A stretch of 20,520 bases of DNA from assembly GCA_944323495.1 (NCBI GenBank), contig CALUSZ010000105.1, positions 1 to 20,520 on the forward strand, written 5' to 3'. The notes under the pieces are model-generated. The model made no database searches. It had not been told where the DNA came from and saw only the letters and a list, made by a program, of their open reading frames with translations. Made by a program: the position numbers and the translations under genes. Shown one piece after another: positions 2,626 to 19,103 of the stretch. Numbering within the stretch: position 1 is the first letter of the stretch; each line of letters opens with the position of its first letter. This DNA comes from Candidatus Gastranaerophilales bacterium. Its GTDB lineage: Bacteria; Cyanobacteriota; Vampirovibrionia; Gastranaerophilales; Gastranaerophilaceae.

Positions 2626-3931
2626 GTATTTAGATATAATCAAAAATACGCAGACTATAAAAGAAATCGGTAAGATTACTGAAATTATCGGACTTACGAT
2701 TGAATCTGACGGGCCAAAATCTTCTATTGGGGATTTGTGCTATATCTATAATGATTATAACGACAAGCCTACAATGGCAGAAGTAGTCGGTTTTAAGCGC
2801 GATAAAATACTTTTAATGCCTCTTGCTAATCCTGATGGAATCCGTCCCGGGGCTTTGGTTGTAAATACCGGAGGAGCAATGAGGATTGGAGTTGGAAACC
2901 AGCTTATAGGACGCGTGTTAGACGGGCTCGGAAATCCAATTGATACTCTGGGCAGTATAAGGTTCTCTGAATACCGTTCAACAAGGGCTGATGCAATTAA
3001 TCCTTTAAAAAGAAAACGTATATCTGAACCTCTGGCACTTGGGATAAAATCTGTAGACGGATTTATGACTCTTGGAAAAGGGCAAAGAATGGGGATTTTT
3101 GCCGGCTCAGGCGTTGGAAAAAGTACAACTATCGGTATGATGGCAAAAAATACATCTGCCGATTTGAACGTAATTGCCTTGATTGGTGAACGGGGACGTG
3201 AGGTTAAGGAGTTTATCGAGGAAATACTCGGGCCTGAAGGCATGAAGCGCTCTATTGTTATTGCGGCAACTTCAGAACAGCCTTCGCTTGTTAAAATTAA
3301 GGCTGCTTTTGTTGCAACTTCTATTGCTGAATATTTTAGAGATAAGGGTTTGGATGTCTTGTTTATGCTGGATAGTGTAACACGTATTGCTATGGCGCAG
3401 AGAGAAGTCGGACTTGCAATCGGGGAACCGCCGGCAACAAGAGGTTACACACCTTCTGTGTTTGCTCTTATGCCAAAATTAATGGAAAGAGCCGGTACAA
3501 ATGAATTCGGAACAATTACCGGGCTGTATACGGTACTTGTTGAAGGTGACGATTTTAATGAGCCGATTTCTGATACTGCAAGAAGTATTTTGGACGGACA
3601 CATTGTACTTTCGCGTGATTTGGCTCACAAAAACCATTATCCGGCAGTCGATGTCTTACAGTCTTTAAGCCGTGTTATGGGGGATGTGACTACAAAAGAA
3701 CACCGTACGGCTGCCGGAAATATCAGAAACCTGCTTGCAGTATATAGAAAAAATGAAGATTTGATTAATATCGGGGCTTATGTGAAAGGTTCTGATCCGG
3801 TTTGTGATAAGGCTATTGCTTTAATGGAGAATATTAATGAATTTCTTATCCAAGCAACGGATGCAAAAATTGAATATGAAGAAACTGTTAATAAACTTTT
3901 ACAGCTTAACCAACTCGCAGGAGGGGGGTAG
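2606..3931 (+). CDS. fliI: Flagellum-specific export ATPase FliI
   Basis: FliI is the hexameric F1-beta-like ATPase of the flagellar type III export gate. At 441 residues it is full length. Visible motifs: Walker A GSGVGKST at 167-174, GERGREV at 194-200, Walker B VLFMLDS at 251-257, followed by VTRIAMAQREVGLAIGEPP, which is diagnostic for the FliI/SctN family. The start ATG lies within the end of fliH and probably relies on coupling. The stop codon TAG at 3929-3931 is also the first base of the GCAAAA element that precedes the next gene. The fliJ gene expected next in many operons is not recognisable here. Confidence 0.96.
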   Translation: MSWDKNKYLDIIKNTQTIKEIGKITEIIGLTIESDGPKSSIGDLCYIYNDYNDKPTMAEVVGFKRDKILLMPLANPDGIRPGALVVNTGGAMRIGVGNQLIGRVLDGLGNPIDTLGSIRFSEYRSTRADAINPLKRKRISEPLALGIKSVDGFMTLGKGQRMGIFAGSGVGKSTTIGMMAKNTSADLNVIALIGERGREVKEFIEEILGPEGMKRSIVIAATSEQPSLVKIKAAFVATSIAEYFRDKGLDVLFMLDSVTRIAMAQREVGLAIGEPPATRGYTPSVFALMPKLMERAGTNEFGTITGLYTVLVEGDDFNEPISDTARSILDGHIVLSRDLAHKNHYPAVDVLQSLSRVMGDVTTKEHRTAAGNIRNLLAVYRKNEDLINIGAYVKGSDPVCDKAIALMENINEFLIQATDAKIEYEETVNKLLQLNQLAGGG

Positions 3932-3963
3932 CAAAAAAAATTTTTACGGGTTTTATAAATAGT
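3931..3963 (+). promoter_or_regulatory. Shared GCAAAA / A-T-tract promoter-like element, copy 1
   Basis: The block starts on the last base of the fliI stop codon: GCAAAA at 3931-3936, an A8-T5 tract, then TATAAA at 3954-3959 exactly 17 bp after GCAAAA, and the ATG at 3964 after 4 more bases. No Shine-Dalgarno is present. The same layout precedes the genes at 6373, 7527 and 19070. I read it as a -35/-10 promoter that yields a leaderless or almost leaderless mRNA; this is inference from spacing alone. Confidence 0.55.
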
Positions 3964-4719
3964 ATGATGAAATTAAGTATAAATAAAAGCAAAACATTTT
4001 TACCTCTGTCAATGGCCAAGGGTACAACTGAACAAAGACTTCAGAAGGCAAGATTATTGAATCTTAAGTTTTATGATAATCTGCATGACGAATTTGTCAA
4101 TAGAGAAGTTAAACAGTCTGTTTTTAAAAGAGTTCTTAGGGAGGCTAGCGGTATAAAGCCAGAAATCAATATTTTTGAGGCTAATGATTGGAAGAAGACT
4201 ACTCTGACTCCTTTGCTTGACTCCAGAAGAAAAGTGAAGGGATTTGCTTTTTTTATTCCGCTTACATACTGGTATAGCAATATCCCTCAAAGTGCATCAC
4301 AGTTCTTTTTAAAAGAAACTCAAAGGTTTTTTAATATGATTTGTAACCCGAAGTTCTTGACTCGTAGATTTCTATTGTTTAACAGAGGGTATAATATAAA
4401 GAAGGTTATGGATTTTTATTCACAAAATATTGCGGAAAAACAAGTTTTGACGGCTGAAAATCTGGATAAATTTTTATGTGGAAAAAATGCTGACGAAAAG
4501 ATAAATACTTTACAATTTCTTAGGTATAATTTAATGGATGATATGAATGTTCATAAGGCTGAATACAGGATTGATAAGCATATTGAAAAAGCTGAAAGTC
4601 TGAAATTTCAGAATAAAAACTATGATTTGTCAGAATATCAATATGATGAGAAGCTGGCATTGTTAAATCAAAGGCTGAATGAAGTCATACAAGCAGAAAG
4701 AAAAGGTATAAAAAAATAG
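3964..4719 (+). CDS. Hypothetical protein, 251 aa, downstream of fliI
   Basis: I do not recognise a family. The product is basic and mostly helical, with no signal peptide and no convincing membrane segment. It opens MMKLSINKSKTFLPLSMAKG, a loose version of the short N-terminal pattern of other orphans here. Two consecutive ATGs (3964, 3967) could each start it. It sits where fliJ is often found, but it is far longer than FliJ (about 150 aa) and has its own promoter-like element, so I do not call it flagellar. A terminator overlaps its stop codon. Confidence 0.7.
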   Translation: MMKLSINKSKTFLPLSMAKGTTEQRLQKARLLNLKFYDNLHDEFVNREVKQSVFKRVLREASGIKPEINIFEANDWKKTTLTPLLDSRRKVKGFAFFIPLTYWYSNIPQSASQFFLKETQRFFNMICNPKFLTRRFLLFNRGYNIKKVMDFYSQNIAEKQVLTAENLDKFLCGKNADEKINTLQFLRYNLMDDMNVHKAEYRIDKHIEKAESLKFQNKNYDLSEYQYDEKLALLNQRLNEVIQAERKGIKK

Positions 4720-4741
4720 GGCTAAAACCCTCTTTTTTATT
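4716..4741 (+). terminator. Rho-independent terminator
   Basis: A short stem AGGG (4718-4721) / CCCT (4728-4731) with loop CTAAAA is followed by CTTTTTTATT. The stem begins inside the stop codon of the preceding gene. The stem is short, so efficiency is uncertain. The A-run upstream could allow weak reverse function. Confidence 0.6.
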
Positions 4742-4924
4742 AAAACTGAGTTTGGTAAGACTTCAATTGATTAAGGGTAATGTAAGCCAGAAGCTAAAAA
4801 AAATTATTAATATTGTAATATAGTGACCAGTATTTTTAACATGTGTTGTTTGTTTGTAAATAAATCTATTGATACACATTTTCTAGTTTTTCATGTTAAT
4901 ATAGAATAAAAAGGAGTGTGTATT
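4742..4924 (+). promoter_or_regulatory. Intergenic region with probable promoter and ribosome binding site for the 89-aa gene
   Basis: This AT-rich gap has no open frame I can support. Near its end there is TGTTAATAT (4894-4902), an extended -10 candidate, with a TTGATA at 4869-4874 that is too far away (22 bp) to be a standard -35 for it. AAGGAG at 4911-4916 lies 8 nt before the ATG at 4925 and fixes that start. Unlike the four genes with the GCAAAA element, this orphan therefore has a leader and a Shine-Dalgarno. Confidence 0.45.
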
Positions 4925-5194
4925 ATGAAAATAGGGGTTAATTACAGTACAAGTTGCAGACAGCCATCTTTTCAGGCTGTTAATCAGAAGTATTTAAAAT
5001 GGGCGGAAAAAATGTACAAAGATAGAAGAACGATTACATCAGAATGGGTAGAATCGTTGACTGATGATGTGATATTGTTTGCAGATGTTTCTAAACGTGA
5101 TGCGATTGACACAATGAATGCCGTTAGAAAATATGTTAATCAAGGTAGTATGGAGGCATTTGAAAGTACACTAAAAGTTATTAAAAATTCTTAA
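4925..5194 (+). CDS. Hypothetical protein, 89 aa, N-terminal PSFQ motif
   Basis: The family is not recognised. The start is the ATG at 4925 because AAGGAG is 8 nt upstream; the GTG at 4916 overlaps that site and is unlikely. The product begins MKIGVNYSTSCRQPSFQAVN, then continues as a charged, probably all-helical segment (KYLKWAEKMYKDRR and on). The PSF near residue 15 resembles PNF in the proteins at 7527 and 19070. The stop codon overlaps that of the convergent gene: a single TTAA (5191-5194) serves both strands. Confidence 0.7.
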   Translation: MKIGVNYSTSCRQPSFQAVNQKYLKWAEKMYKDRRTITSEWVESLTDDVILFADVSKRDAIDTMNAVRKYVNQGSMEAFESTLKVIKNS

Positions 5195-6039
5195 TCTATT
5201 AATTTAGATATATTATTACCTGCAATGGCCCCAAGTCCCATACCAACAAGCGAGCCGACTGGACCAAAGTACTTGGCTCCTATTGCACCGCCATAGCCGA
5301 TACCTGCAATTGAGCTTGTTAAATTTATTGCAGATTTTGCTGTAGCTTTTATTGCATTTTCTCCATCTGATATTTCTTTTAATAAATGAGCAGTTTCCAA
5401 GCCTCCAAGAACTACCGTACCAATTTTTGTGGTTCTTGTCATTGCTCTTGCTGTTAATTCGCCAAATGCAGATTTTGTTATAAATTTTTTTGCTTTGATG
5501 AAGTTTGAATTTTGTTCCGTATGTGTAATGTTTTTAATTGTTGTATCAATAAACTTTTCATCTATATTATATTTTTCTGTCACTAATTTACCAAGTTTTG
5601 TGTTCCACAGAGTTGTATCATTTTTAAAAAGCCATTTAGCAAGCTTAGGGCAAGGGCTTGTCTTAGGGTTTACAAATTTATGTAAAAGTGTTCCCCTGAA
5701 AAACGAGAATGGGTGTTGTGCCGTTTTATAGTCATAAGAAGGTGTAAATTTTTCCCCGAGTGCGGAAGCTTTTATCTGTGCATAAGCGGATTTCATATCT
5801 CTCCAATCCTCAGGTGCGTTAAGAACCGCCAGTGCAACAAGCCCCGTTGCGGGAACAAAATCGGAATGTTCAACTTTATCCGGTACTCTCTCTACACGCC
5901 TAAAAGTTGGTATTATATCAAAGATTGAAGGCAGTTTGTTTTCTTTATCAACAGTATTCTTTACTTCCTCATAATCCTGCTGAATTTGAGGTAGTTTATC
6001 TATTTGGTTTTGATACATGATTGGATTAAATGTACACAT
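5191..6039 (-). CDS. Hypothetical protein, 282 aa, glycine-zipper C-terminus
   Basis: No family is recognised. The N-terminal two thirds are soluble and charged, with Pro-rich patches and an HPFSFFRGT stretch at 109-117. The last 40 residues (about 243-275) are a Gly/Ala-rich hydrophobic segment with GxxxG-type spacing (IAGIGYGGAIGAKYFGPVGS), like glycine-zipper membrane-inserting regions. There is no signal peptide. An AAGG lies 10 nt before the ATG. A GCAATTTTTTC box (6095-6085 on this strand) precedes TATATA, a looser form of the element at the other orphan genes. Membrane association is inferred only from the C-terminus. Confidence 0.7.
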   Translation of the reverse strand: MCTFNPIMYQNQIDKLPQIQQDYEEVKNTVDKENKLPSIFDIIPTFRRVERVPDKVEHSDFVPATGLVALAVLNAPEDWRDMKSAYAQIKASALGEKFTPSYDYKTAQHPFSFFRGTLLHKFVNPKTSPCPKLAKWLFKNDTTLWNTKLGKLVTEKYNIDEKFIDTTIKNITHTEQNSNFIKAKKFITKSAFGELTARAMTRTTKIGTVVLGGLETAHLLKEISDGENAIKATAKSAINLTSSIAGIGYGGAIGAKYFGPVGSLVGMGLGAIAGNNISKLID

Positions 6040-6164
6040 TAAAATATAACCTTCAACACTTATATATATAAAGTATTTGATGTAGAAAAAATTGCCTAAT
6101 TTAAAATATTATTTTTACAATAATATAGAAAATTTTATCTACAATTACAATATTTTTTGTTATT

Positions 6165-6199
6165 AAAACAAAATGGCAAGACCTAAAGGCCTTGCCATT
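6165..6199 (-). terminator. Rho-independent terminator of the tRNA-Lys gene
   Basis: A 9-bp stem, AATGGCAAG (6172-6180) with CTTGCCATT (6191-6199), is followed on the minus strand by TTGTTTTAATA. It lies 15 bp downstream of the tRNA 3' end and should end that transcript before the minus-strand gene at 6039. Confidence 0.8.
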
Positions 6200-6214
6200 A
6201 TTGAATTTAAAAAT

Positions 6215-6287
6215 TGGGTGTGGTGGGACTCGAACCCACGACCAATTGATTAAGAGTCAACTGCGCTACCAACTGCGCCACGCACCC
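6215..6287 (-). tRNA. tRNA-Lys, anticodon CUU
   Basis: Read on the minus strand, the cloverleaf is complete: acceptor GGGTGCG, D arm GCGCAGTTGGTAGCGC, anticodon stem GTTGA/TCAAT with loop CTCTTAA (anticodon CTT), T arm GTGGG-TTCGAGT-CCCAC, and acceptor 3' strand CACACCC with discriminator A. CCA is not encoded. The acceptor stem has a C-A mismatch at positions 6-67, so it is not fully paired. CUU decodes AAG. Confidence 0.95.
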
Positions 6288-6315
6288 GTATGTTGAATTT
6301 TCAATCTACAAAACT

Positions 6316-6343
6316 ATTCTAACACAAACTTTTATTACCGCAA
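6316..6343 (-). promoter_or_regulatory. Promoter of tRNA-Lys
   Basis: On the minus strand TTGCGG (6343-6338) and TAGAAT (6321-6316) are 16 bp apart and lie about 30 bp before the tRNA 5' end, a good housekeeping-type promoter. The -35 overlaps the GCAAAT box of the divergent gene at 6373, so the two promoters may compete. Confidence 0.6.
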
Positions 6344-6372
6344 ATTTTTTTTTGTGCGGGTTTAGTTTTAAT
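6340..6372 (+). promoter_or_regulatory. Shared GCAAAA / A-T-tract promoter-like element, copy 2
   Basis: GCAAAT starts at 6340, followed by a T9 tract, GTGCGGG, and TAGTTT at 6363-6368, again 17 bp after the first hexamer. The ATG at 6373 falls 33 bp from the leading G, exactly as in copies 1 and 4. The -10-like hexamer is weaker than in the other copies. No Shine-Dalgarno is seen. Confidence 0.5.
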
Positions 6373-7491
6373 ATGCAGATTACAAAAATAAATAATTTTA
6401 ATTATCAAGCTTGTAATAAAACTGTATTTAGACGGGCAAAGTTAAAACAGACAGGTGCAAAGGATTTTTTTGTCAAAACTGTCTCAGGACTGCTGCAAGA
6501 TTCATTAACAGAAATTAAGGACATAGCACCGGTAGCCTTTGCCGGTACTAAGTGCTCGGGAGCATTAATGCTGAATGATTTTTGGAAAAGTGTTGCTCCA
6601 AAAAATTTAGCAACAAAATTCAAACTTAATATGCTGGGCTTATCTACAAACAGGGACGGGTTTGCCGATAGTTTTTTGAAAACGTATTCTGACAGGCCTA
6701 TTTCTACATCTTTTGTCCATAATTGTGCGGTTATGTATTTGTATAATGATAAAACTAAAACCCATGCTATGTATCATGCCGCTCCGAATACAAAAGTTAA
6801 AAAATTAGATTTTATGATTAAAACGCTTATGCCGGAAGGTTTTACACATGCGGATATTGTTCCCGGGGATTATAGTTTTTATAGGGAACAAGCTCCTAAT
6901 ATGAAAAATATGTTTAAACTCTTGAAACAAAATAATCCGTCTGCTGTTGTGAACGTGTTTTATGGAATTAACAGATTTCCGGAAGTTGTCGGATATAAAG
7001 GAGGGGTTTTCCAAATCCCTAACAAGAGGGTGGAAGAGCAGATGAATAGAGGTATTCTCGATGCAACAGATTACGGGCAGGCAAGCTTCAAGATTCTGGA
7101 TACAGGAGGATATAATACTTTCGATTATATTCACGGAGAATGCACTACCATGGATGAGCTGGAGAATTTAAAAAACAGATTCAAAAAGAATAACTTGCCA
7201 AAACTGATGTTTAAGATTTTCGCTGATGAAATTAATAAACAAAAAGATGTTCTAAATTTAATTAATAAATCAAAATCTTTAGACGAGTTAAATGATTGGA
7301 AGGAGATTTTTACTGAGGACAAATTTAAAACAATTTTTCTGAAAAAAAGAGAAGAAATGCTTATTAATATTTTAGATAAAGTTAATGATGAGGAGGCGCT
7401 TAAACAATTTTATCAGCTGGCAAGGCACGATTTTATAAGGATGAAAAAACTCTTCAAACTTTTTCAGGAAAAGAAAAAAGAAATTCTTTAG
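6373..7491 (+). CDS. Putative CheD-like glutamine deamidase, orphan, 372 aa
   Basis: No family is obvious at first sight, but residues 112-141 carry T112, C118 and H135, the spacing (6 and 17) of the Thr/Cys/His site in CheD receptor glutamine deamidases. Residues between also agree: CAVMYLYNDKTKTHAMYH against the CheD type CxxxxLYDxxTKxxxxxH. Further on, NMKNMFKLLKQ then a GYKGGVFQIPN strand-turn resembles the end of the CheD domain. An N-terminal region of about 110 residues and a helical tail (about 255-372) are extra; CheD is only about 160 residues. The N-terminus MQITKINNFNYQ resembles other orphans here. The ATG at 6373 is chosen over an upstream TTG because of the promoter spacing. 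It is not beside chemotaxis genes, so the substrate is unknown. Confidence 0.6.
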   Translation: MQITKINNFNYQACNKTVFRRAKLKQTGAKDFFVKTVSGLLQDSLTEIKDIAPVAFAGTKCSGALMLNDFWKSVAPKNLATKFKLNMLGLSTNRDGFADSFLKTYSDRPISTSFVHNCAVMYLYNDKTKTHAMYHAAPNTKVKKLDFMIKTLMPEGFTHADIVPGDYSFYREQAPNMKNMFKLLKQNNPSAVVNVFYGINRFPEVVGYKGGVFQIPNKRVEEQMNRGILDATDYGQASFKILDTGGYNTFDYIHGECTTMDELENLKNRFKKNNLPKLMFKIFADEINKQKDVLNLINKSKSLDELNDWKEIFTEDKFKTIFLKKREEMLINILDKVNDEEALKQFYQLARHDFIRMKKLFKLFQEKKKEIL

Positions 7492-7526
7492 CAAAAAAAT
7501 TTTTTATCTGATTTAATATAAATGTT
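7491..7526 (+). promoter_or_regulatory. Shared GCAAAA / A-T-tract promoter-like element, copy 3
   Basis: GCAAAA starts on the G of the preceding stop codon (7491), followed by an A7-T6 tract, with TAATAT at 7514-7519 17 bp after the first hexamer and an overlapping TATAAA at 7517-7522 that lies 4 nt before the ATG. The ATG at 7527 is 36 bp from the leading G, 3 bp further than in the other copies. No Shine-Dalgarno is present. Confidence 0.55.
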
Positions 7527-7865
7527 ATGAACGTATCAAAAATACAAACAAGGCCGAATTTTTATAATAACGAAAAACCTAAAAAGCGCGAGTTTATAGA
7601 TGTTATTGCAGATAATGTAAAAAATCCGCGCGATGTACAGGATTGTGTGGCTGTACCCAGAGGGATTTTTAAGGCTTATATTTATTTAATGGCCGGAAGC
7701 GGACTTTTATCAATTTCTAATTTTCTGCCGAATAAATGGAAAGGTGTAAAAACTACTGTTAATATTTTAGGTGCAATATTAGGTATTATAAGTGCGGTTT
7801 ATTTTGCCAAACCATTTGCAATCAAAGGTTTGTCACCAACTGTAGAAAAAGAAAAACCTCTCTAA
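7527..7865 (+). CDS. Small membrane protein, 112 aa, N-terminal PNF motif
   Basis: The family is not recognised. The protein starts MNVSKIQTRPNFYNN, which aligns without gaps to the start of the kinase-like protein at 19070 (I6, P10, N11 and F12 identical). A charged region precedes two hydrophobic helices at about 47-67 and 76-96, giving a hairpin membrane topology. The last codons and stop lie inside a perfect terminator hairpin. Function cannot be assigned. Confidence 0.7.
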   Translation: MNVSKIQTRPNFYNNEKPKKREFIDVIADNVKNPRDVQDCVAVPRGIFKAYIYLMAGSGLLSISNFLPNKWKGVKTTVNILGAILGIISAVYFAKPFAIKGLSPTVEKEKPL

Positions 7866-7881
7866 TTTTAGAGAGGTTTTT
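7852..7881. terminator. Bidirectional Rho-independent terminator, perfect 14-bp palindrome
   Basis: AAAAACCTCTCTAA (7852-7865) and TTAGAGAGGTTTTT (7868-7881) are perfectly complementary with a TT loop. Both strands end in a T-run, so it can terminate the plus-strand gene whose stop it contains and the minus-strand gene ending at 7903. Confidence 0.88.
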
Positions 7882-7902
7882 CCTTAAACTTTTTTTCAGT
7901 TA

Positions 7903-8130
7903 CTATCTTAATTTTACAGTTACTGATTTAGCTTTTTGAGTGTATTCAAGTTTATCTTCTCTTGATAACCAACCTAAACCCATTTCAGCAAAGTTTTCGT
8001 TTAAAGAAAGGTCTTTTTTCATTTTATTAATAGATACTTCACCTTTGTTTGAAAGGTAGTTGTAAATTTGACCTGCTGATTCAATGATTTGTTCTTGAAT
8101 ACCTTTTTTTTCTTCTTTAACTCTTGCCAT
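7903..8130 (-). CDS. Small winged-helix DNA-binding protein (DUF2582-like)
   Basis: The 75 residues resemble the small winged helix-turn-helix family Pfam DUF2582: EQIIESAGQIYNYLSNKGE, then VSINKMKKDLSL as the first part of the helix-turn-helix, then MGLGWLSREDKLEYTQ as recognition helix and wing. It is probably a DNA-binding protein of unknown target. AAGGAG lies 6 nt before the ATG. It ends at the bidirectional terminator and is divergent from the helicase gene. The family is assigned from memory of its pattern, not by search. Confidence 0.7.
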   Translation of the reverse strand: MARVKEEKKGIQEQIIESAGQIYNYLSNKGEVSINKMKKDLSLNENFAEMGLGWLSREDKLEYTQKAKSVTVKLR

Positions 8131-8247
8131 TTTAATCTCCTTCTTAAATAGTGTATTCGTAATTGCTTACGAGATTATTGTAGTAAAAATTTTCTGATTT
8201 GGCAAGAGGTTTGAACCGTATTTATGATAAAATAGTCTATAAGGAGT

Positions 8248-11200
8248 ATGTTATTAAATTTTATTAAAGTCGATTTTCGAACTAAAGTATTAGTTGAAAA
8301 ATATCTGGAGCTTGTTTCTGAAGGCGTGAAACCGTCAGAAATACTGGTTCTTGTACAAAATTCCACTTTAAAAAAACAATTTACGGATAAAATATTAGAT
8401 AATATAAAAATTAGTGCGGTTGAAAAGTTAAATATTCATTCTTTTTTTTCAATTGTATATAATACACTTATTGACAACTGGTGTTTTATTGAAAATTCCA
8501 TTCCGGGAGAGAGACATTTTATTTTGCCGAATCTGGTGGGATTAGAGGTCTCGCAGTTTTTATTAAAAGATATTTTAAAACATGTTGAGGTTAAGGGATA
8601 TAATTCTAAAAAATCTCTTTTGCATCAAATTTTCAGAAGGTATTCTTTAATTGTGCAAAATCATTTAACTAATGAGGAGGTAAAAGAACGGTCTAAGATT
8701 TTAAAAGAGTCGTTTGCTGATGATGCGGAAATTATTATAAAAAAACTTTTGTCCTCTACTTTGAAAACCAGAAGTCTGGACTATTTGAGACAGACTTTGA
8801 TTTTTAACCATGTTTATAAAAATACGGATTATTTTAAGGATATTAAATATCTTCTTGTTGATGATGCAGATGAGATGACTCCGGTTTGTTTTGATTTTAT
8901 AAGTTATCTAAAACCGCAGCTTAAGGATTGGGTAATTTGTTTTGATTCTTTAGGTTCCTCAAGGTGCGGGTATTTGAGCGCCGACACCTCAATTGAGTAT
9001 AAACTCGAAAAGTTGTTTAACGAAGGGGTAGGGGAATGCATGGACATGTCTCAGTCATTCAATTCCCCCTTTCCCCAAGGTGATATAATCTTCTCCAACA
9101 TTCTTGAAGGAACAAAAAAAAGATTAGAAAATTTTACATTAACTTCACTCTCAAAACGCGCGGAAATTCTGGATTATACGATTGAAAAGATACAAAACTT
9201 ATTCAAAAAAAACATTCTTCCAAAAGATATTGCTATCATAACTCCGCTTCAGGACGACATGCTTCATTTTACACTTAGAGAAAAATTGGGGTGTAATATT
9301 TTATTCTTGTCAGGGAGTGAAAAACTTGCAGACAATCCGCTTGTAAAATCGAGTTTGAATATTTTAAAACTCATGCTCGGAATTGAAATCTCCGAGATGG
9401 AGCTGCGGGTTATACTTTCTGATTTTATCGGTATTCCTTTAAAATATTGCAAGACAATTCTTGAGTATTATAAAGAGAGGCATGAGCTTCCGAATGAAAC
9501 AGAGTTTTATAATGACAAATATCAAAAATTCCATGAGGCTTTTGTTAGGATTAAATCAAAAGAGGAAAAGCTTTCTAGGAAAGTTTTTGACATGTTTTAC
9601 AGCTCGGTGGATTATGTAGACGAAACAAAGATTAATAAATTTAATTTCTTTATAAAACAGCTTAAGGATTTTGAGAGTGTTTTAGGCTGGGAGCAGGTTA
9701 TTGAAAGGGCTGACGATATTATTATTCAGATAGAAAATTCTATTATTGCAGAAAACCCCAGTTCAACATTAGAAATACATGATAATGATTTAGTTGTAGC
9801 GACTCCGCAAAAAATTATTGATAACAAAATATCAACAAAATATCAGTTTTGGCTTGATGTATCGCATGGTGACTGGGTAAAAACGGATACGGGGCCTTTG
9901 TATAATGCATGGGTTATGCAGGCTGATTGGACAAAAGACGAATATACGGTTGAAGATGATATATTTTTATCAAAACAAAAGACTGCAAGGATTTTAAGAA
10001 AGCTTCTCCTCTTAGCGCGGGAGCATGTCTGGGCATGCTCAAGTTTATTTGATCCGTCAGGCGTTGAAAATCTCGGCGGGATTGAAGATTATCTCGCAGG
10101 CGGAGATGATGAACCTGTAGAAGAAAAGAAAGCTTTCAGGATTATTCCGCGTCCCGATCAGAAGCCGGTTTTGGATTATGAAAAAGGCTCTATGGCGATT
10201 TCTGCTGTTCCGGGGGCGGGGAAAACCACGATTTTGCTGGCATTAATAATTAAACTAATGGATAGAGGAGTTAATCCCGAACATATTTATGTTTTGACTT
10301 ATATGGATTCTGCGGCCAGAAATTTTAGGGAAAGAATTAAGAACATGTGCCCGAATACAAACAGGCTTCCTAATATCAGTACTATACATGGTTTGGCGCT
10401 TAAGATTATTAAAGAAAATTCGAATTTTGAAAGGCTGAATCTTTCATCAGATTTTGATATATGTGACGATACGCAGAGAATGCGTATAATAAGGGGTATT
10501 GGAGGAAAATATACAAAAACAGAGCTGGAAGAGTTTGATAGGGCAATTTCGGTTTTAAAGCTGCAGGAAGGGAATATTGATACTGAATCAGCGGATAAAA
10601 AGACATTAAAATTTAAGGAATTTTTCCGTGCTTACCAGAAGGAGTTGAAGGAAGCTGATTTGATTGATTATGATGATATTTTAATCATGTCGGTAAAGCT
10701 TTTAGAAAATAATCCTGATATTTTAGAATATTACAGGGGGCAGTGCGAATATATTATAGAAGATGAAGCACAGGATTCATCGGCTGTGCAGCAGAAATTA
10801 ATCGGATTATTGTCGGGTAAACATAAAAATTTAATCCGCTGCGGTGATATTAATCAAGCGATTACAACAACTTTTTCTAACGCTGATGTTGAAGGGTTCA
10901 GAAATTTTATCCAGAGTGCGGATAAAACCGTAGAGATGAATTATTCCCAGAGATGTACGCAAGATGTCATGGATTTAGCGAATAAGCTTGTTGATTTTGG
11001 AGACAAAATCCTTCCGAAAGCTTTTTTCAAAAGCTATATGAGAGGGGTTGAGGGGAAAAATCCTGTAAGTGAGAATGCTATTTTCTCCTGCGTGTTTGAA
11101 AACAATTTTGCGGAGAGAAATTTTATATTGAAAGAGATAAAAAATATCTTGACCAGAAATAAAGATGCAACGGTCGGAATATTATTAAGAAACAATTATC

Positions 11201-12075: not shown

Positions 12076-12088
12076 TACCCGAACGATG

Positions 12089-12220
12089 TTAGGTCTCTTC
12101 TTGCCCCTTTTCTGCTTTTTTAATCTTCATCACTTTTCCCTCCACTTCCATTTCGATTTGGTCTTGTTCGGGATTGATGTCAAGCAATTCCAGAATTGGC
12201 TTTGGTACAAAAATAGCTGT
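12089..12220 (-). pseudogene. C-terminal remnant of an AbrB/MazE-like antitoxin
   Basis: On the minus strand 43 codons and a TAA stop encode AIFVPKPILELLDINPEQDQ and then IEMEVEGKVMKIKKAEK. This matches the second half of MazE/SpoVT-AbrB-fold antitoxins, where IPKxILELLxIxxGD-type sequence is followed by a beta strand and a basic tail. The first half (usually a basic beta hairpin with a Met start) is missing: upstream the frame runs straight into the inverted-repeat element at 12219. No toxin gene follows; downstream is the convergent helicase end. It therefore looks like a broken remnant of a toxin-antitoxin pair. Confidence 0.7.
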
Positions 12221-12241
12221 AGGTTGGGTGAAACCCAACAA
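12219..12241 (+). repeat. Left terminal inverted repeat of the MITE/REPIN-like element
   Basis: This 23-bp repeat contains an internal 6-bp hairpin and overlaps by 2 bp the open frame of the antitoxin remnant. Confidence 0.85.
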
Positions 12242-12322
12242 ATAAATAGATTGCTATGAAATATAAATTACAATAATGTTATTTTATTAATCAATATAGA
12301 ATTATGAATAAATTATAATAAA

Positions 12323-12345
12323 TTGTTGGGTTTCACCCAACCTAC
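12323..12345 (-). repeat. Right terminal inverted repeat of the MITE/REPIN-like element
   Basis: An exact inverted copy of the left repeat. Its outermost GTAG (minus strand) includes the TAG stop codon of the adenine deaminase gene at 12344-12342. Confidence 0.85.
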
Positions 12346-14069
12346 GAAACTACTATCGTTTCAGCAGTTTCAAATATATTAATAAAATCGAGTTTGTTGG
12401 TATCAAAAACCCCTTTATCGGTAATTTTTAATTCCGGAATAACAGGCAGCGACAGGAAGCCCATTGTCATAAAAGGGTCTTCTAACTTGCAGCCGATAGA
12501 ATGTGCAGCTTGATTAAGTTCATGACATTTAGAGATAACAAAATCAAAGTCTCTGTCTGACATTAATCCTGCTATAGGAAGAGGAAGAGAAGAGATTATT
12601 TCTCCATCTTTCACAACCACTTTTCCCCCCTGGCATTTAATCAGGGCAACTGCGGCCGCGTACATATCATCATCATTTGTTCCGATTACAATCATGTTGT
12701 GAGAATCATGTGCCACGGTAGATGCTATTGCTCCGCATTTGAGGTTAAAGCCTTTGACAAAACCTTTGCCGATATTTCCTGTAGCGCGGTGTCTTTCTAT
12801 TACGCAAATCTTTAATGTATCATTTTCAATATTACTTACGGCGTTTCCGTCTTGAATTTTAATTTCTGAAACAACGGATTTTGTAATAAGCTGATTAGGT
12901 ATAACCTCGAGTGCTTGAACTTTCGCAGCTTCTGCCTTAATTACAAAATCTTCGGGCGTAATCCATCTTACATTAACGGAGTTTCTGGTCTCGATTGCGG
13001 TTTTTTCCGGAATCTTGGAAACAATATTCCCGTTTTCTACCGCAATTTGGCCGTTTTTGATTACAATATCAGGCTTAAATGTTTTTAAATCCGGAAGAAT
13101 AAGCATATCGGCCTTATACCCCGGAGCTATTGCACCAAGGTTTTTGAGTCCGAAATATTCAGCCGTATTCAGGCTTGCAATCTGTACGGCTTTGACGGGC
13201 GGAACTCCCGCTTTTACGGCACGTCTTACCATGCCGTTTATATGTTCTTTTAAATCCGCAGGGTGTCTGTCATCAGTAACAAAAATGCATTTTCTTGTAT
13301 TACACTCTTGTAATACCGGAATCAATGCCTCCAAATCTTTAGCTGCCGTTCCTTCGCGTATCATGATATACATGCCGAGCCGCATTTTTTCAATCGCTTC
13401 TTCTGGTGTCGTGCATTCGTGGTCAGATTTTACGCCGCTTGCAATATACGCGCACAAATCTTTATTGCTCAAATACGGAGCATGGCCATCTATACATTTG
13501 TTATAAGATTTTGCAAGCTCCAATTTTGCCATAACATTCTTATCCTGATTTAAAACTCCGGGGAAATTCATCATCTCCGCTAATCCTAAAACCCATGGTT
13601 TATCGATTAAAAGCGAAAGGTCATAGCTTGTAAGGTCAAATCCCGATGTCTCAAAAGGTGTTGCCGGAACGCAGGAAGGGAGCATTGTATAAACATCAAT
13701 AGGCAAATCTTTCACGACTTCGTGCATAAAACTGATTCCGTGGAGCCCGAGAACGTTTGAGATTTCGTGCGGGTCAATAATAACCGTTGTTGTGCCTGCC
13801 GGAAGTACTATTTTTGCAAACTCCCGCGGGAGCATCATTGTACTTTCAAGATGCACATGCCCGTCAATAAATGAAGGAGACACGTACGCTCCGTTTATAT
13901 CAATCTCTTTTTCGCCAAAATATCCATTTCCGACACCTGCAATAATTCCGTCTTTTATTGCAATATCGGCTTGATAAATTTCTTCAGATAAAACATTGAT
14001 AATATTTGCATTTTTTATTACTAAATCGGCTTTTTCAAAGCCCCTTGCCGTATTAATTATATTTGACAT
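12342..14069 (-). CDS. ade: Adenine deaminase
   Basis: The product converts adenine to hypoxanthine and ammonia in purine salvage. At 575 residues it is the size of B. subtilis AdeC and E. coli Ade. Visible family features are the metal-binding DGHVHLESTMM at 69-79 (H71, H73), a GHAPYLS segment, SDHECTTPEEA, FVTDDRHPADL, and the C-terminal VAHDSHNMIVIGTND and PELKITDKGVFD stretches. AGGGAT lies 6 nt before the ATG. The start overlaps the end of the upstream gene by 13 bp, so the two are coupled. The stop codon is supplied by the inserted inverted-repeat element, so the last residues (about TIVVS) may differ from the ancestral end. Confidence 0.95.
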   Translation of the reverse strand: MSNIINTARGFEKADLVIKNANIINVLSEEIYQADIAIKDGIIAGVGNGYFGEKEIDINGAYVSPSFIDGHVHLESTMMLPREFAKIVLPAGTTTVIIDPHEISNVLGLHGISFMHEVVKDLPIDVYTMLPSCVPATPFETSGFDLTSYDLSLLIDKPWVLGLAEMMNFPGVLNQDKNVMAKLELAKSYNKCIDGHAPYLSNKDLCAYIASGVKSDHECTTPEEAIEKMRLGMYIMIREGTAAKDLEALIPVLQECNTRKCIFVTDDRHPADLKEHINGMVRRAVKAGVPPVKAVQIASLNTAEYFGLKNLGAIAPGYKADMLILPDLKTFKPDIVIKNGQIAVENGNIVSKIPEKTAIETRNSVNVRWITPEDFVIKAEAAKVQALEVIPNQLITKSVVSEIKIQDGNAVSNIENDTLKICVIERHRATGNIGKGFVKGFNLKCGAIASTVAHDSHNMIVIGTNDDDMYAAAVALIKCQGGKVVVKDGEIISSLPLPIAGLMSDRDFDFVISKCHELNQAAHSIGCKLEDPFMTMGFLSLPVIPELKITDKGVFDTNKLDFINIFETAETIVVS

Positions 14070-14632
14070 ACCAAATCCCTGTACTCAAGAAGTTTTGATA
14101 AATCTTCCTGCTTCAAAACCTCATCAATCTTTTCTTTAAATGTTTCTGCCCCATCGGTTTTCATGCCTTCAGGGAGCTTAATATCAGTATTGTATTTTGT
14201 CTCAACAAAACCCTTATTAATAATTAAAAACTCTTTATACATTTCTAAAATTTTCAAATCACCCTGATTAATCTCATAATTTTCGCCGAGAAAATATTTC
14301 ATATCCTTAGGGAATAATTCCAGAAATTTAATCATAAATTCTGTATCGGAAATATTAGCTTCCTCATCATAAGGCTGGTTAAAACAGCTGTTGTTTAGGA
14401 TTTCCTGCTCAGGCTGTGTTTTGAGATAAGCTGCCCACATAAGACACCCGACATAGAAACCGAGATTATTATAAAAAAGTTCAAGAAATTTTTTGTAATA
14501 CTGCCTGAACTTCATTTTTCTCTGTGATAAATTCTTGAATCTGTTAATATCCATATAAAGATATTCAACAGTACCTCTAAACGCTAAAATATACGGTGCA
14601 AATCCCGGATCGAACTCTAAACCTTTTGCCAT
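14057..14632 (-). CDS. Hypothetical protein, 191 aa, between GT9 and ade
   Basis: I do not recognise the family. The protein is soluble-looking, acidic and aromatic-rich, with many Tyr/Phe/Leu helices (RQYYKKFLELFYNNLGFYVG) and no export signal. A perfect AAGGAG lies 4 nt before the ATG. It follows the glycosyltransferase by 25 bp and overlaps ade by 13 bp, so the three are probably cotranscribed, though no shared pathway is apparent. Confidence 0.75.
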   Translation of the reverse strand: MAKGLEFDPGFAPYILAFRGTVEYLYMDINRFKNLSQRKMKFRQYYKKFLELFYNNLGFYVGCLMWAAYLKTQPEQEILNNSCFNQPYDEEANISDTEFMIKFLELFPKDMKYFLGENYEINQGDLKILEMYKEFLIINKGFVETKYNTDIKLPEGMKTDGAETFKEKIDEVLKQEDLSKLLEYRDLVCQI

Positions 14633-14657
14633 AATTCTCCTTTTGGTTTATAACATT

Positions 14658-15644
14658 TTAGCATAAAATTTTCACAATCTCATCAGAAGATATTTTCAAA
14701 CATTCAAGTGTATCACAGGTTGTCTGCCGTCTCTCCCACAGGCATGGCCTTAAAGGGCAGGTGCAGGTTTTTGACTTGATTGGAATAACTTTGCCGTTTG
14801 GAGGAATTAGTTTTTTATCATCGGTGGAGCCGAAAATTACATAGGTTTTCACTCCCAGAGCGGAAGCTATGTGCAAAGGGGCAGAGTCAGAACATAAAAA
14901 TATTTCAGCTTTTGATATTAACTCCGCCAACTCCCGAAGATTTTTTGTCTTGCCGTACATATTAACGAATTTTTCGGAAGAAACTGTATTTACAATAGTA
15001 TCAATCGTTTCTTTATCATCAGGGCCTCCGGCAAGAATAACTTTTTTGCCTCGCCCGGCTAGCTTTTCCACAACTTCTGCCCAAATTTTTGCAGGAATTG
15101 TTTTTATCATATTTTTTCGAACACTTAATAAACTTACTCCGGGGTGAATTAAGACTGTATTCGCTTCAGTCTCTTTTTTCTCAACATTTATTTGCGGAAG
15201 CTCTGTTACAACACCGCTCAACGGGCGGACTAAATCATGGTACATAGTAGCAGCGTATTGATTTTTATTTAATTTAACCGCTTCTGTGAGCAAGAGTTCG
15301 CTTAGTTTACCCGTATTATATCCGTAACGCTTTCTTATAAATGTTAAAAACAAAAAAATTGAGATAAATTTATTTGAGCCTGATGAAATTACTATATCAA
15401 ATTTTTTAGTCCAAATCTTAAAGAGTAATTTTAAAAGCTCAAGGTACTTGCCGCTTCCCTTGATATTGGCAAACAAAGTTTCATCTATAATATCCGTAAG
15501 CCCTGTTATTCCCTTGCTTCTCTCTTCCAGTGCGAGTGTAATTTCAGAGGCGGGAAACTCTTTTTTTACGGAAATTATTGAAGGAAGAAAAAGGATTTCA
15601 TCGCCAAGGCCGCCAAAATTTATAAAAAGAATTTTCTTTTTCAT
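14658..15644 (-). CDS. Glycosyltransferase family 9 (heptosyltransferase-like), 328 aa
   Basis: GT9 enzymes transfer sugars such as heptose onto lipopolysaccharide core at the inner membrane face. The N-terminus MKKKILFINFGGLGDEILFL has the family's GGLGDxxLxxP loop. The C-terminal half shows VLIHPGVS, KVILAGGPDDKETI, and the nucleotide-sugar site CSDSAPLHIASALGVKTYVI then FGSTD. A Cys-rich end (CTCPLRPCLWERRQTTCDTL) is common in this family. I chose the ATG at 15644 because the family begins there; an in-frame upstream ATG would add 52 residues that read through an intergenic hairpin and look non-coding. The ribosome site is weak. The exact sugar cannot be told. Confidence 0.88.
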   Translation of the reverse strand: MKKKILFINFGGLGDEILFLPSIISVKKEFPASEITLALEERSKGITGLTDIIDETLFANIKGSGKYLELLKLLFKIWTKKFDIVISSGSNKFISIFLFLTFIRKRYGYNTGKLSELLLTEAVKLNKNQYAATMYHDLVRPLSGVVTELPQINVEKKETEANTVLIHPGVSLLSVRKNMIKTIPAKIWAEVVEKLAGRGKKVILAGGPDDKETIDTIVNTVSSEKFVNMYGKTKNLRELAELISKAEIFLCSDSAPLHIASALGVKTYVIFGSTDDKKLIPPNGKVIPIKSKTCTCPLRPCLWERRQTTCDTLECLKISSDEIVKILC

Positions 15645-15748
15645 AACTTCTTTGTACTTGAAAAATGTTACATTTGCAATAGAGGGAGCGGAAAATCCCA
15701 AAAATTGACAGATTTTGAGGTTTTTCGCTCCCGGCCTAAGGTGTGTGA

Positions 15749-15786
15749 ACCACAGGCTTGGTGCTATCCCGCACCAAGCCTGTGGT
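15749..15786. repeat. Perfect 16-bp hairpin (GC-rich) in a divergent intergenic region
   Basis: ACCACAGGCTTGGTGC (15749-15764) and GCACCAAGCCTGTGGT (15771-15786) pair perfectly around the loop TATCCC. No T-run follows on either strand, so it is not a standard terminator. It may be a palindromic mobile unit or an operator or RNA structure. It is richer in G+C than the surroundings. Confidence 0.85.
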
Positions 15787-15800
15787 GAAACCGTTCCCAA

Positions 15801-15837
15801 GAATTTGCGAGAAAAATATTAATTTTTCCGCAAATTC
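15801..15837. repeat. Second hairpin, 9 + 7 bp with one bulge, directly after the first
   Basis: GAATTTGCG (15801-15809) pairs with CGCAAATTC (15829-15837). After a single unpaired A, GAAAAAT (15811-15817) pairs with ATTTTTC (15822-15828) around an ATTA loop. It lies 15 bp from the first hairpin and 60 bp before the LCP gene. A role in divergent transcription is possible but unproven. Confidence 0.8.
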
Positions 15838-15887
15838 AATAATTGATTTTAGTATATGCTTAAAATATAATTTTTTAGTATAGAGAG

Positions 15888-15893
15888 TATAAA
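15888..15893 (+). promoter_or_regulatory. Candidate -10 box (TATAAA) 3 nt before the LCP start codon
   Basis: TATAAA at 15888-15893 is followed by TAG and then the ATG at 15897. No good Shine-Dalgarno is seen and no GCAAAA box sits 17 bp upstream. The placement suggests a very short or absent leader, as at other genes of this window. Confidence 0.35.
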
Positions 15894-15896
15894 TAG

Positions 15897-17198
15897 ATGA
15901 AAATAGCTAATGATAATAATCAAAAAGAAGAATATAGGGAATTTTTAAAAAATATCCGTGAGGAAAGAGAAGGAACTTCTAATTTTGCAAAGTTATTATT
16001 TACAATTGTTTTAGCTGTTTTGTGTGCAGTAATAGTATGCGTAACAGTTGTAGAGAACAATTTTTTCCTGAATAGTCTTGAGCCGGATAAGGCTGATGAG
16101 TTTTTCTCAAAAAAGGATAGAAATAATTTTGAAGTACCTTTTTCTCCAAGAAGGCAAAATATTTTACTTTTAGGTGTTGATTCAAACGGAGAAGGAACTA
16201 AAATGTGGGAAGGAACACGTTCCGATACTATAGTGATTGTTAATATCGACCCTAAAACGAAAACTATTAATGCAATATCTATTCCGCGTGATAGCAAAGT
16301 TTACCTTCCTGATAACCACGGGATTCAAAAGATTAATTCTGCTCACGCGTTAGGTGGTGTAGATTTAGTCAAAAAAACACTTAAAGAAACTTTTGGAATA
16401 AAAATTGATAAGTATATTATCGTTCACGACGAAGCTGTCGAAAAAATAGTTGATGCACTTGGAGGAATTCCCATTTATGTAGAAAAACCTATGCGTTACC
16501 ATGATTATGCCGGAAAGCTCCATATTGACCTTCCAAAAGGGAACACAGTTTTGAACGGTAAACAGGCTGTAGGTTATTTGAGATATAGAAAAGACGGGCT
16601 CGGTGATATCGGAAGAACGCAGCGCCAGCAGTGGTTTATGAGGAGCCTGTTTGAAAAACTTCATTCCCCGCAGGTAATTACAAAGATTCCGGAAGTATTA
16701 AATATTTGTAATACATATGTAAAAACAGATATGAGTTTTTATGAGCTTTCTCAATATGCAGCATTTGCAAGAAGCGTTGATGAGAATAAGATTGAAATAG
16801 CAACGCTTCCGGGTGCTCCAAATCAGAGAGGATATATAAGCTATTGGATTTTAGACCCACAAAAAACGCAGGAAGTTATTAACAGAATGATATACCGCGA
16901 TAAACCGTCTCTCGACGGAACAAAATTCAAAGGCGGGATTATGTATTCGCCTAAAAAAGAAGAAGAAGCTATGGCGATGAAAGAAAAGTTAAATGAATTA
17001 GGGTTTGAAGTTAATATGCTAAAGATTACGCATCTTTCTCATACACGTTTTGTTGCGAACAAAAATGCTGTTTCTGTTGATTTCTTTAACTGGCTTCAGA
17101 AAAAAATGCCGGAATTAGACAGTATGCAGTTTATATATGACCCTACGGAAACCTTCTCTGTCGGAAGTGATTTTACTGTCGTACTTGCAGAGGGATAG
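15897..17198 (+). CDS. LytR-CpsA-Psr (LCP) family envelope protein, 433 aa
   Basis: LCP proteins attach polyprenyl-linked glycans to peptidoglycan. A cytoplasmic N-terminus of about 30 residues precedes one membrane helix (31-52). The LCP domain then begins with NILLLGVDSN (88-97), TRSDTIVIVNIDP (107-119), SIPRDSKV (128-135) and INSAHALGG, and ends with the LRYRKDGLGDIGRTQRQQ signature, where the conserved Arg and Asp bind pyrophosphate. The last 100 residues (GGIMYSPKKEEEAMAMKEKL and on) look like a LytR C-terminal domain. It is divergent from the GT9 gene and 32 bp before the nitroreductase, with no terminator between. Confidence 0.92.
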   Translation: MKIANDNNQKEEYREFLKNIREEREGTSNFAKLLFTIVLAVLCAVIVCVTVVENNFFLNSLEPDKADEFFSKKDRNNFEVPFSPRRQNILLLGVDSNGEGTKMWEGTRSDTIVIVNIDPKTKTINAISIPRDSKVYLPDNHGIQKINSAHALGGVDLVKKTLKETFGIKIDKYIIVHDEAVEKIVDALGGIPIYVEKPMRYHDYAGKLHIDLPKGNTVLNGKQAVGYLRYRKDGLGDIGRTQRQQWFMRSLFEKLHSPQVITKIPEVLNICNTYVKTDMSFYELSQYAAFARSVDENKIEIATLPGAPNQRGYISYWILDPQKTQEVINRMIYRDKPSLDGTKFKGGIMYSPKKEEEAMAMKEKLNELGFEVNMLKITHLSHTRFVANKNAVSVDFFNWLQKKMPELDSMQFIYDPTETFSVGSDFTVVLAEG

Positions 17199-17230
17199 GG
17201 GTAAATAGAGGAAAGAAAGGAGTGTAGTTC

Positions 17231-17833
17231 ATGTTAGATTTAATCAAATCAAGAAAGAGCGTTAGAAAATATTCGGAAAAACATATTCCCGATGAAGATT
17301 TGAGGAAAATTCTTGAAGCCGGCAGACTTGCTCCTTCCTGGATGAATGTACAATCTTGGGAATTTATCCTTGTTAAATCACAGGAGAATAAAGATTTATT
17401 ATCCGAACTAGCTGTCGGGCAAGGGCATGTTAAAAATGCCGACGCTTTAATTGTATGTGTTGCTGATATGAATGCCTGGGAAGAAGCTAAAATTACGCAT
17501 ATTTCTAAACCGGCGCTTAATCCAAAATTGCAGGGCGAAAATGGTATTCTTATAAGAACTCTAGAGCAGCTAATTTATCCGATATCTTATATGATGCTTG
17601 AGGCTGAATCTTTGAACGTAAAATCATGTATTATAGGAGCCTTGGGGAATGAAATCACAGGAGTTTTGCCTGAAATTTCCGCGAAGGCAAAGGCTCAACT
17701 CGGGCTTAATGAAAATCAGATAATTTCGACCATTATCACTCTCGGATACGAAGCAGAACACAGTGAGACAAATAAAATCAGAAAAGATTTTGACTCTGTT
17801 GTTTTCTTAGAAAAAATCGGTAATAAATTCTAA
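17231..17833 (+). CDS. Nitroreductase-family protein, 200 aa
   Basis: FMN-dependent oxidoreductases of this family reduce nitro compounds or quinones with NAD(P)H. The N-terminus MLDLIKSRKSVRKYSEK carries the FMN phosphate-binding Arg residues (R8, R12). It is followed by LRKILEAGRLAPSWMNVQSW, and the C-terminus has STIITLGYEAE where the family has a GYP-like turn. Length is typical. AAGGAG 8 nt before the ATG fixes the start. Its stop overlaps by 4 bp the stop of the convergent small gene. Substrate unknown. Confidence 0.9.
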   Translation: MLDLIKSRKSVRKYSEKHIPDEDLRKILEAGRLAPSWMNVQSWEFILVKSQENKDLLSELAVGQGHVKNADALIVCVADMNAWEEAKITHISKPALNPKLQGENGILIRTLEQLIYPISYMMLEAESLNVKSCIIGALGNEITGVLPEISAKAKAQLGLNENQIISTIITLGYEAEHSETNKIRKDFDSVVFLEKIGNKF

Positions 17834-18042
17834 TCAATCTCAGGTTCGCCGTTCATAAGCTTTAAGATTTCTACAACTTTTGGCATTTGGCAGTCAAAAG
17901 AATAATGTGCTTTTTTAATCGAGCATTCTCTGCAGTTGCCGTTAAGTTTGTAGCATTCGATTGCTTGTTCTGTCCAATTTTTGGTGATTGAACCAGAAAT
18001 CTCGGTTTGTCTCGGCGGTTCTATTATTGCATGGTTCAGCAT
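17830..18042 (-). CDS. Small Cys-containing protein, 70 aa
   Basis: The family is not recognised. I use the ATG at 18042 because AGAGGGGGAG lies 5 nt upstream; starting at 18096 would add 18 hydrophobic residues without support. The core ECYKLNGNCRECSIKKAHYS then FDCQ contains four Cys (C-x7-C-x2-C-x11-C), suggestive of a zinc or iron-sulfur site or disulfides, with a short amphipathic tail. It lies 50 bp downstream of the kinase-like gene on the same strand and may be cotranscribed with it. Confidence 0.68.
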   Translation of the reverse strand: MLNHAIIEPPRQTEISGSITKNWTEQAIECYKLNGNCRECSIKKAHYSFDCQMPKVVEILKLMNGEPEID

Positions 18043-18092
18043 TACACACTCCCCCTCTTGTAACATAATAGTACCTAATATAAAATACAGCA

Positions 18093-19070
18093 TCATCTAT
18101 TTAAACGATTTGTCACAAAGAGATTGTCAATATATGCTTTTGTTTTGCGAACCCTTTCTTCCGGATTAGAATACCGGTATTCAATGTCATCTAAAGTTCT
18201 CATAACTTCTGCTGCATCATTTTTTATACTGCATTTTTTGAGAGCCTTCTGCCAGTTCATATAATCCCATTGAGAATTAGCCTGTAGTAAATTTGCCCTA
18301 GAAGATGCTAAAACAACTTTTTTGAAAATTTTTCTTACAAGAGGAAGCTTCTCTCCTGCAGGTGGTGCATCTAAATCTTTTGTAGCACGATTAATAAATA
18401 CTTCTAAAAGCTTAGCTGTTGTATTTGAATATGACCTGTCACAATTCATGTCAATTTCGTCTACCAAATATAATTTTCCGTGGCTTGCAACAATGTTATT
18501 TGGATTAAGCGAATCAAAAATACAAAATTGTCTTGTATCAAAATTGATTTCATTCAGTTTGTTAATATCCATTGCCAATTTATCATAACTTGACTGTGGA
18601 ATATGTGCAAAACGCGGAAGATATGTATTTAGGTAGTATTTGTATATTTTGTTTTTATTAAAAAACTTTGTTAAATGTTCCGGCACACCGGCAGGTCTAT
18701 GGTGCCCAACATTCTTTAAAATCTGCAGTTTGCCCATTTCTAAGATTGCTTCTCCAAAGTAACTTTTTATATTAGAAAAAATTCCTTTCCCCGAATTAAC
18801 AGTTTGAGGAAGCTCATCAGAGTTAATCTTTGCTTCTCGCGGAAGTCTTAGGGCATATTTTCTTGTAATTTTATAGACTGCATTATGTGAACCCTCTTCA
18901 ATAAATTTTTCCGGTGTTAAAATACTGCTTAAACCAAGTTTGATTTTATCAGCAAGCTTGCGGTTAAGCTCTTTGTCTGCAGGGTGATTTATAACCATTT
19001 CGATTTGGGTTTGAATTTGTCTTGAATGGCCTCTAAAATTTGGAGACGATGATATAGGATTAATGTTCAT
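18093..19070 (-). CDS. Kinase-like (APH-fold) protein with N-terminal PNFRG motif, 325 aa
   Basis: Motifs follow the order of aminoglycoside-phosphotransferase-like kinases. A glycine loop EEGSHNAVYKI lies at 58-68, then ALRLPRE at 73-79 with Arg75 in the usual Lys/Arg place, FGEAILEMGKLQIL with Glu107/Glu111 for the alpha-C Glu, FDSLNPNNIV at 185-194 in the catalytic-loop place (family HGDLHPGNIL), and LYLVDEIDM at 200-208 with Asp204 as the metal-binding Asp. The catalytic Asp position reads Ser187, with an Asp one residue earlier. The N-terminus MNINPISSSPNFRG is shared in part with the protein at 7527. It has its own promoter-like element. It may be an active atypical kinase or a pseudokinase; the target is unknown. 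Confidence 0.6.
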   Translation of the reverse strand: MNINPISSSPNFRGHSRQIQTQIEMVINHPADKELNRKLADKIKLGLSSILTPEKFIEEGSHNAVYKITRKYALRLPREAKINSDELPQTVNSGKGIFSNIKSYFGEAILEMGKLQILKNVGHHRPAGVPEHLTKFFNKNKIYKYYLNTYLPRFAHIPQSSYDKLAMDINKLNEINFDTRQFCIFDSLNPNNIVASHGKLYLVDEIDMNCDRSYSNTTAKLLEVFINRATKDLDAPPAGEKLPLVRKIFKKVVLASSRANLLQANSQWDYMNWQKALKKCSIKNDAAEVMRTLDDIEYRYSNPEERVRKTKAYIDNLFVTNRLNR

Positions 19071-19103
19071 ATATTTTATAAATCACCTGAAAAAATTTTT
19101 TGC
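19071..19103 (-). promoter_or_regulatory. Shared GCAAAA / A-T-tract promoter-like element, copy 4
   Basis: On the minus strand GCAAAA starts at 19103, two bases after the stop codon of the upstream permease gene. An A6-T6 tract follows, with TATAAA at 19080-19075, 17 bp after the first hexamer, and the ATG at 19070 after 4 nt. The leading G is 33 bp from the ATG, as in copies 1 and 2. AGGTGA within it is 12 nt from the ATG, too far for a typical Shine-Dalgarno. Confidence 0.55.

Follow-up and report, generated by a model that had tools for sequence, protein, structure and literature searches.

The window analysed here, a stretch of 20,520 nucleotides from a Candidatus Gastranaerophilales bacterium (assembly GCA_944323495.1, contig CALUSZ010000105.1), contains a series of flagellar genes (fliF, represented by its C-terminal part, followed by fliG, fliH and fliI), genes for an ArsP-like protein, a LytR-CpsA-Psr-family protein and a glycosyltransferase, and several orphan genes. 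The closest genome compared (G001) had 32% of sampled 31-mers in common with it. Immediately before four of the orphans, and running right up to the start codon, is a short block with an A/T tract that had been proposed, from the sequence alone, to be a shared promoter. Here, we report that this block is a real, conserved, family-wide promoter-like element located before mostly orphan genes, many of which encode proteins with a common N-terminal motif, referred to below as the tag.

The four blocks in the window

Direct reading of the four blocks (Table 1) confirmed both the distances between the leading G and the A of the ATG and the position of the TA-rich hexamer, which begins 17 nt after GCAAAA or GCAAAT in every case. 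All four blocks also contain a G in position 20 and the sequence TTTA in positions 22–25, features absent from the sequence-only reading. A weight matrix derived from other genomes (30 training sites, 29 loci), which provides the independent test of these blocks, scored them at 25.8–33.6 bits, and the next-best place in the window at 7.3. The looser pattern originally suggested was too weak as sole evidence, as 7 copies were found in the window where 3.55 were expected (standard deviation 1.62; about two standard deviations above shuffles) and 3 of 100 shuffles reached 7. A fuller pattern gave 4 exact matches and, with up to three mismatches, 8 matches relative to 2.47 expected (largest shuffle, 7), a count that is not independent because the pattern was derived from these same four sites.

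Some accompanying claims fared less well. A supposed looser copy of the block at 6095-6085 on the minus strand scored −18 or worse with the matrix and was rejected. The statement that most genes with assignable functions have AAGGAG held only in part: AGGAG-type sequences precede the genes at 8248 and 17231, none precedes those at 825 and 15897, and a strong one lies before the orphan at 4925. Similarly, three of the four blocks start on or near the previous stop codon (the leading G of block 1 is the final base of the fliI stop), but this is not a rule, as none of 39 sites in genome G021 adjoins the stop codon of a gene called on the same strand. In 26 of those 39 sites 'TA' precedes the GC, so that overlaps with a TAG stop arise easily. 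By eye, a tRNA-gene-like sequence was also seen just upstream of block 2 (6217-6288, minus strand).

Table 1. Blocks, the genes that they precede, and a tagged gene elsewhere in the window (distances are counted between the leading G and the first base of the ATG).
Feature	Position	Strand	Description
Promoter-like block 1	3931..3963	+	33.6 bits; abuts ATG of gene at 3964; distance 33 nt; TATAAA
Promoter-like block 2	6340..6372	+	25.8 bits; abuts ATG at 6373; distance 33 nt; TAGTTT
Promoter-like block 3	7491..7526	+	29.3 bits; abuts ATG at 7527; distance 36 nt; TAATAT
Promoter-like block 4	19071..19103	-	28.2 bits; abuts ATG at 19070; distance 33 nt; TATAAA
w3964	3964..4719	+	Orphan, 251 aa; no clear tag
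w6373	6373..7491	+	Orphan, 372 aa; first 41 residues disordered, then predicted CheD-like deamidase fold; partial tag
w7527	7527..7865	+	Orphan, 112 aa; partial tag (PNFYN)
w18093	18093..19070	-	Orphan, 325 aa; tag PNFRG at residues 10-14; predicted kinase-like fold
Tagged orphan (PSFQA)	4925..5194	+	Ordinary Shine-Dalgarno; no matrix match nearby

Recurrence, conservation and start-codon classes

The genome-wide search suggested by the sequence-only reading was run with a strict pattern (GCAAAWWWWWTTTTNNNNNGNTTTA), and the block recurred throughout the family with few reversed matches. Each of 34 same-genus genomes (34/34) contained 3–19 exact matches, with a combined total of 2 reversed matches. 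Across the order, 240 of 266 genomes from the family and 9 of 20 from other families (11 sites) had the pattern, and reversed matches numbered 9 over all 286 genomes. A scan of named genomes returned at least 118 stretches; among the 80 listed, 26 had Gastranaerophilales or Melainabacteria in their titles, 3 were titled 'Cyanobacteria bacterium', and the remaining rows included many gut bins and some evident chance matches in unrelated organisms. Viral contigs yielded 9 stretches with the pattern, none of which was a relative of w18093.

Matrix searches at a threshold of 16 bits gave the same picture. In G021 (1.18 Mb, 1053 genes from a simple gene caller), 39 sites were found compared to 3 in simulated sequence and 0 reversed, with one of the 29 training loci (L008) coming from this genome. 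With their own loci excluded from training, G010 had 14 sites (0 simulated, 0 reversed) and G034 had 13 (1 simulated, 0 reversed). Overall, 37 of the 1053 genes called in G021 have the block at this threshold. In G045, a 400-kb genome of family f7, there were 3 sites relative to 0 simulated and 0 reversed, none at a called gene start. Elsewhere in family f7, a relative of w6373 (L366, genome G048) is preceded, at 33 nt from its ATG, by a GCAAT variant scoring 13.2 bits, which hints at a diverged form of the putative promoter outside the family.

The block is conserved before orthologs of all four window genes. For w3964 it lies 32–33 nt before the ATG in 7/7 full-length orthologs (18.8–29.7 bits; protein identity 27–69%), a count that excludes six weaker matches, three without a tblastn hit and three without the block. 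For w6373 it lies at 32–36 nt in 7/7 ortholog loci (13.2–26.4 bits; identity 27–77%), and for w7527 it was present in 5/5 orthologs, with the window distance of 36 nt in four and a distance of 51 nt in the fifth. All eight genomes with a clear w18093 ortholog have the block: in six it stands before the gene itself (five at 32–33 nt, and one at 47 nt with a Shine-Dalgarno), and in the other two, G003 and G020, where two genes lie in tandem, it precedes the first and not the second. This count leaves aside eleven weaker rows, two of which (L311 and L312) score 13.8 bits at 33 nt. Two of the ortholog sites (in L018 and L024) were also among the matrix training sites. In several relatives the neighbouring genes are kept together with the block. 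An alignment of 20 sites gave 1.36 versus 0.34 bits per column, values that are only illustrative because the sites were picked by score and four rows labelled w6373 (L360, L361, L363 and L365) in fact contain the block of w7527.

The two parts of the block are held at a fixed distance. Upstream of 1757 called genes, GCAAA and TTTA were separated by 16 nt in 30 cases and by 17 nt in 25, relative to 5 cases or fewer at every other distance from 8 to 25 and to 6 and 6 on the opposite strand at 16 and 17. The −10 part is better read as G-N-TTTA than as the hexamer first described. Among 227 distinct sites of at least 18 bits in the loci collected, 190 are followed, 28–94 nt after the leading G, by an ATG that begins a long frame: 1 at 28 nt, 75 at 31–36 nt (the near class), 6 at 37–42 nt and 108 at 43 nt or more (the far class), although these counts take in related genomes and are thus not independent. 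The near class peaks sharply, with 44 sites at 33 nt and 16 at 32 nt. A Shine-Dalgarno-like word was found in only 2 of the 75 near-class sites vs 87 of the 108 far-class sites, so that near-class genes lack a Shine-Dalgarno as leaderless-mRNA genes do; 5 near-class sites do show one at an in-frame ATG further downstream. Housekeeping promoters, tried as a control for leader length, gave 10 strong sites, too few for comparison. A single transcription start near position 33 would account for both classes, with the message either lacking a leader or having one with room for a ribosome site. Thus, the proposal of a dedicated leaderless promoter gained support from the spacing, the ATG peak, the conservation before orthologs and the scarcity of Pfam domains among carriers described below, but lost its exclusivity, as the genes behind 108 of the 190 sites have an ordinary leader.

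Carrier genes and the N-terminal tag

Genes behind the block are biased towards orphans, as had been predicted. G021 has 32 carriers of 100–700 residues; in a random sample of 20 of these, 5/20 had a Pfam match (matrixin, YkuD, AAA, helix-turn-helix and tyrosine phosphatase), relative to 16/20 length-matched controls. In the window, w3964 and w7527 had no match in Pfam, PHROG or NCBIfam, no name or Pfam domain was listed for any of the 24 homologs of w3964, and none of the four genes matched phage families. The w7527 gene follows w6373 in five relatives. Structure prediction suggests that w6373 adopts a CheD-like fold with Thr-Cys-His; CheD was not among its Pfam matches at E-values up to 10, and a PDB sequence search with its profile returned one weak, unrelated match. 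The product of w18093 models as kinase-like, which makes it a candidate member of the protein kinase/APH superfamily. One tagged carrier elsewhere (L208:11001-11861) encodes several helix-turn-helix units and is possibly a DNA-binding member of the regulon.

The carriers had been described as unrelated, and they are mostly orphans, but many have the tag in common, which consists of an M-x-I start followed within 50 residues by F-x-(G/A/S) in a set context. In G021, G010 and G034 combined, 32 of 60 carriers were tagged compared to 224 of 1697 other genes (p = 7e-13), and shuffled carrier N-termini gave 5.8 tags on average and 13 at most over 500 shuffles. By genome, the tag was found in 24/37 carriers vs 147/1008 other genes in G021 and in 6/13 vs 34/359 in G010. 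A stricter motif gave 21/37 vs 85/1008 in G021 and was not enriched in internal stretches. The w6373 and w18093 families largely keep the tag, and the stretch preceding it varies. Of the four window genes, only w18093 has the full tag. Some untagged carriers resemble, by eye, signal-peptide proteins or lipoproteins.

The tag exists independently of the block, as indicated by the tagged gene at 4925. Likewise, in G045 (stretches L249-L268) the tag is present on genes with ordinary leaders, and none of the tagged genes whose upstream regions were inspected had the block, with many having a Shine-Dalgarno; the tag is therefore not tied to the promoter.

Recognition, possible export and known systems

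Overall, we consider it highly probable that the block represents a dedicated class of promoters, in many cases leaderless, that occurs chiefly in a single family of Ca. Gastranaerophilales and controls a scattered, lineage-specific regulon. Transcription very likely starts at the near ATG, about 33 nt after the leading G, which would place (TA)GCAAA at about −33 to −29, followed by a fixed-length spacer containing the A/T run and then G-N-TTTA, with its G at −14 and TTTA at about −12 to −9. As judged from block position, the 5' end of near-class transcripts would lie at or within a few nucleotides of the ATG. An ATG at the start point would yield a leaderless message, and one at least 10 nt further on a short leader with a Shine-Dalgarno; the scattered genes driven in this way would encode lineage-specific proteins, around half of them tagged and some with ordinary signal peptides.

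Several observations weigh against this reading. The relatedness of the genomes behind the start-codon classes reduces the weight of those counts. In G034 the tag was not enriched among carriers (2/10 vs 43/330). Matches to sigma-70 region 2 numbered seven to nine per genome both inside and outside the family, and no family-specific sigma factor was found, as all six clusters with full-length members spanned both groups in a comparison that covered 61 of 78 sequences. No readable sigma gene was preceded by the block.

To our knowledge, the pairing of GCAAA with G-N-TTTA fits no known sigma consensus. We lean towards recognition by an alternative sigma factor over an activator. It is less probable, and on balance rather doubtful, that the block is an operator, in which a transcription factor binds GCAAA and the A/T run and the housekeeping polymerase uses the T/A-rich element as its −10. 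The downstream element is often TATAAT-like and the sigma factor comparison above would agree with an operator, and one adjoining a −10 could produce the same fixed-spacing picture; however, the TTTA spacing of 16 or 17 and the retained G at position 20 are as in a two-part promoter. A mobile or recombination element carrying genes, such as a cassette site, is very improbable: blocks do stand before unrelated orphans scattered through genomes, and in the window on or beside upstream stops, but the lack of such stops in G021, the retention of block and neighbours in several relatives and the sharply set ATG distance all argue against it. Least probable of all is a chance over-reading of ordinary A/T-rich sequence from four examples, which the modest excess of the looser pattern over shuffles would allow but which is contradicted by the reversed and simulated controls and by conservation before orthologs of all four genes.

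The block and the common tag point to co-regulation and, possibly, export of the products. FlhA-type proteins were found in 56 of 57 genomes searched, i.e. in all 56 genomes of the order, with two full-length copies in many of them among the matches listed, and FliP was present in two copies in 10/10 genomes. A second flagellar-type locus in G010 (L219:3940-9926) encodes FliE, FliF, an unknown protein, FliH and FlhA, and G021 has a similar export locus (C1:216581-222547). The FlhA of the second G010 locus scored below the curated cut-offs for both flagellar FlhA (697.5 vs 772.1) and SctV (584.8 vs 692.25). Together, the two FliP copies and the second FlhA locus make a second export gate possible, and nothing here connects such a gate to the tag. 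A third FHIPEP match, to the C-terminal half (~158 bits), lies in a protein of ~490–500 residues in at least many genomes of the order (e.g. G021:C3:78620-79660). Flagella are described for Melainabacteria by Di Rienzi et al. 2013 (PMC3787301), who also mention one gut genome without filament and hook-filament-junction genes.

Export of the products is a tentative suggestion. A fuller scheme, which we regard as speculative and unlikely to hold in its entirety, is that promoter and tag mark a secretome of fast-changing, effector-like enzymes (a CheD-like deamidase, kinase-like and tyrosine-phosphatase-like proteins, and others) under a dedicated sigma factor, with a second, divergent flagellar-type apparatus reading a tag of the form 'M-x-I...(N/S)F-x-(G/A/S)'.

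A literature search covering titles and abstract openings of the papers listed found no such promoter or tag described for Ca. Gastranaerophilales. The block provides a first handle on the uncharacterised part of these genomes, as one sequence rule leads to a scattered, apparently co-regulated set of genes and predicts exact 5' ends, and a single tag connects many unrelated orphans. Should the products prove to be exported, this would point to a delivery system in gut relatives of Cyanobacteria that are common and little studied.

Relative to the CheD glutamine deamidase of T. maritima (2f9z_C), w6373 has an additional N-terminal tag region and a C-terminal helical part, and does not match the CheD sequence model. 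Early flagellar subunit export signals (Bryant et al. 2022, PMC8983047) resemble the tag in combining a hydrophobic extreme N-terminus with a second short motif; the resemblance is only a lead, and no evidence points to F-x-(G/A/S) as a gate recognition motif. As in regulons of alternative sigma factors of the sigma-70 family, in which many scattered genes of related function are preceded by two elements at a fixed spacing, the block has two elements spaced by 16 or 17 nt. Finally, as in leaderless bacterial mRNAs, near-class genes have an ATG at the expected start and almost no Shine-Dalgarno (2/75), but here leaderless and leadered genes use one promoter class, which is biased towards orphans.

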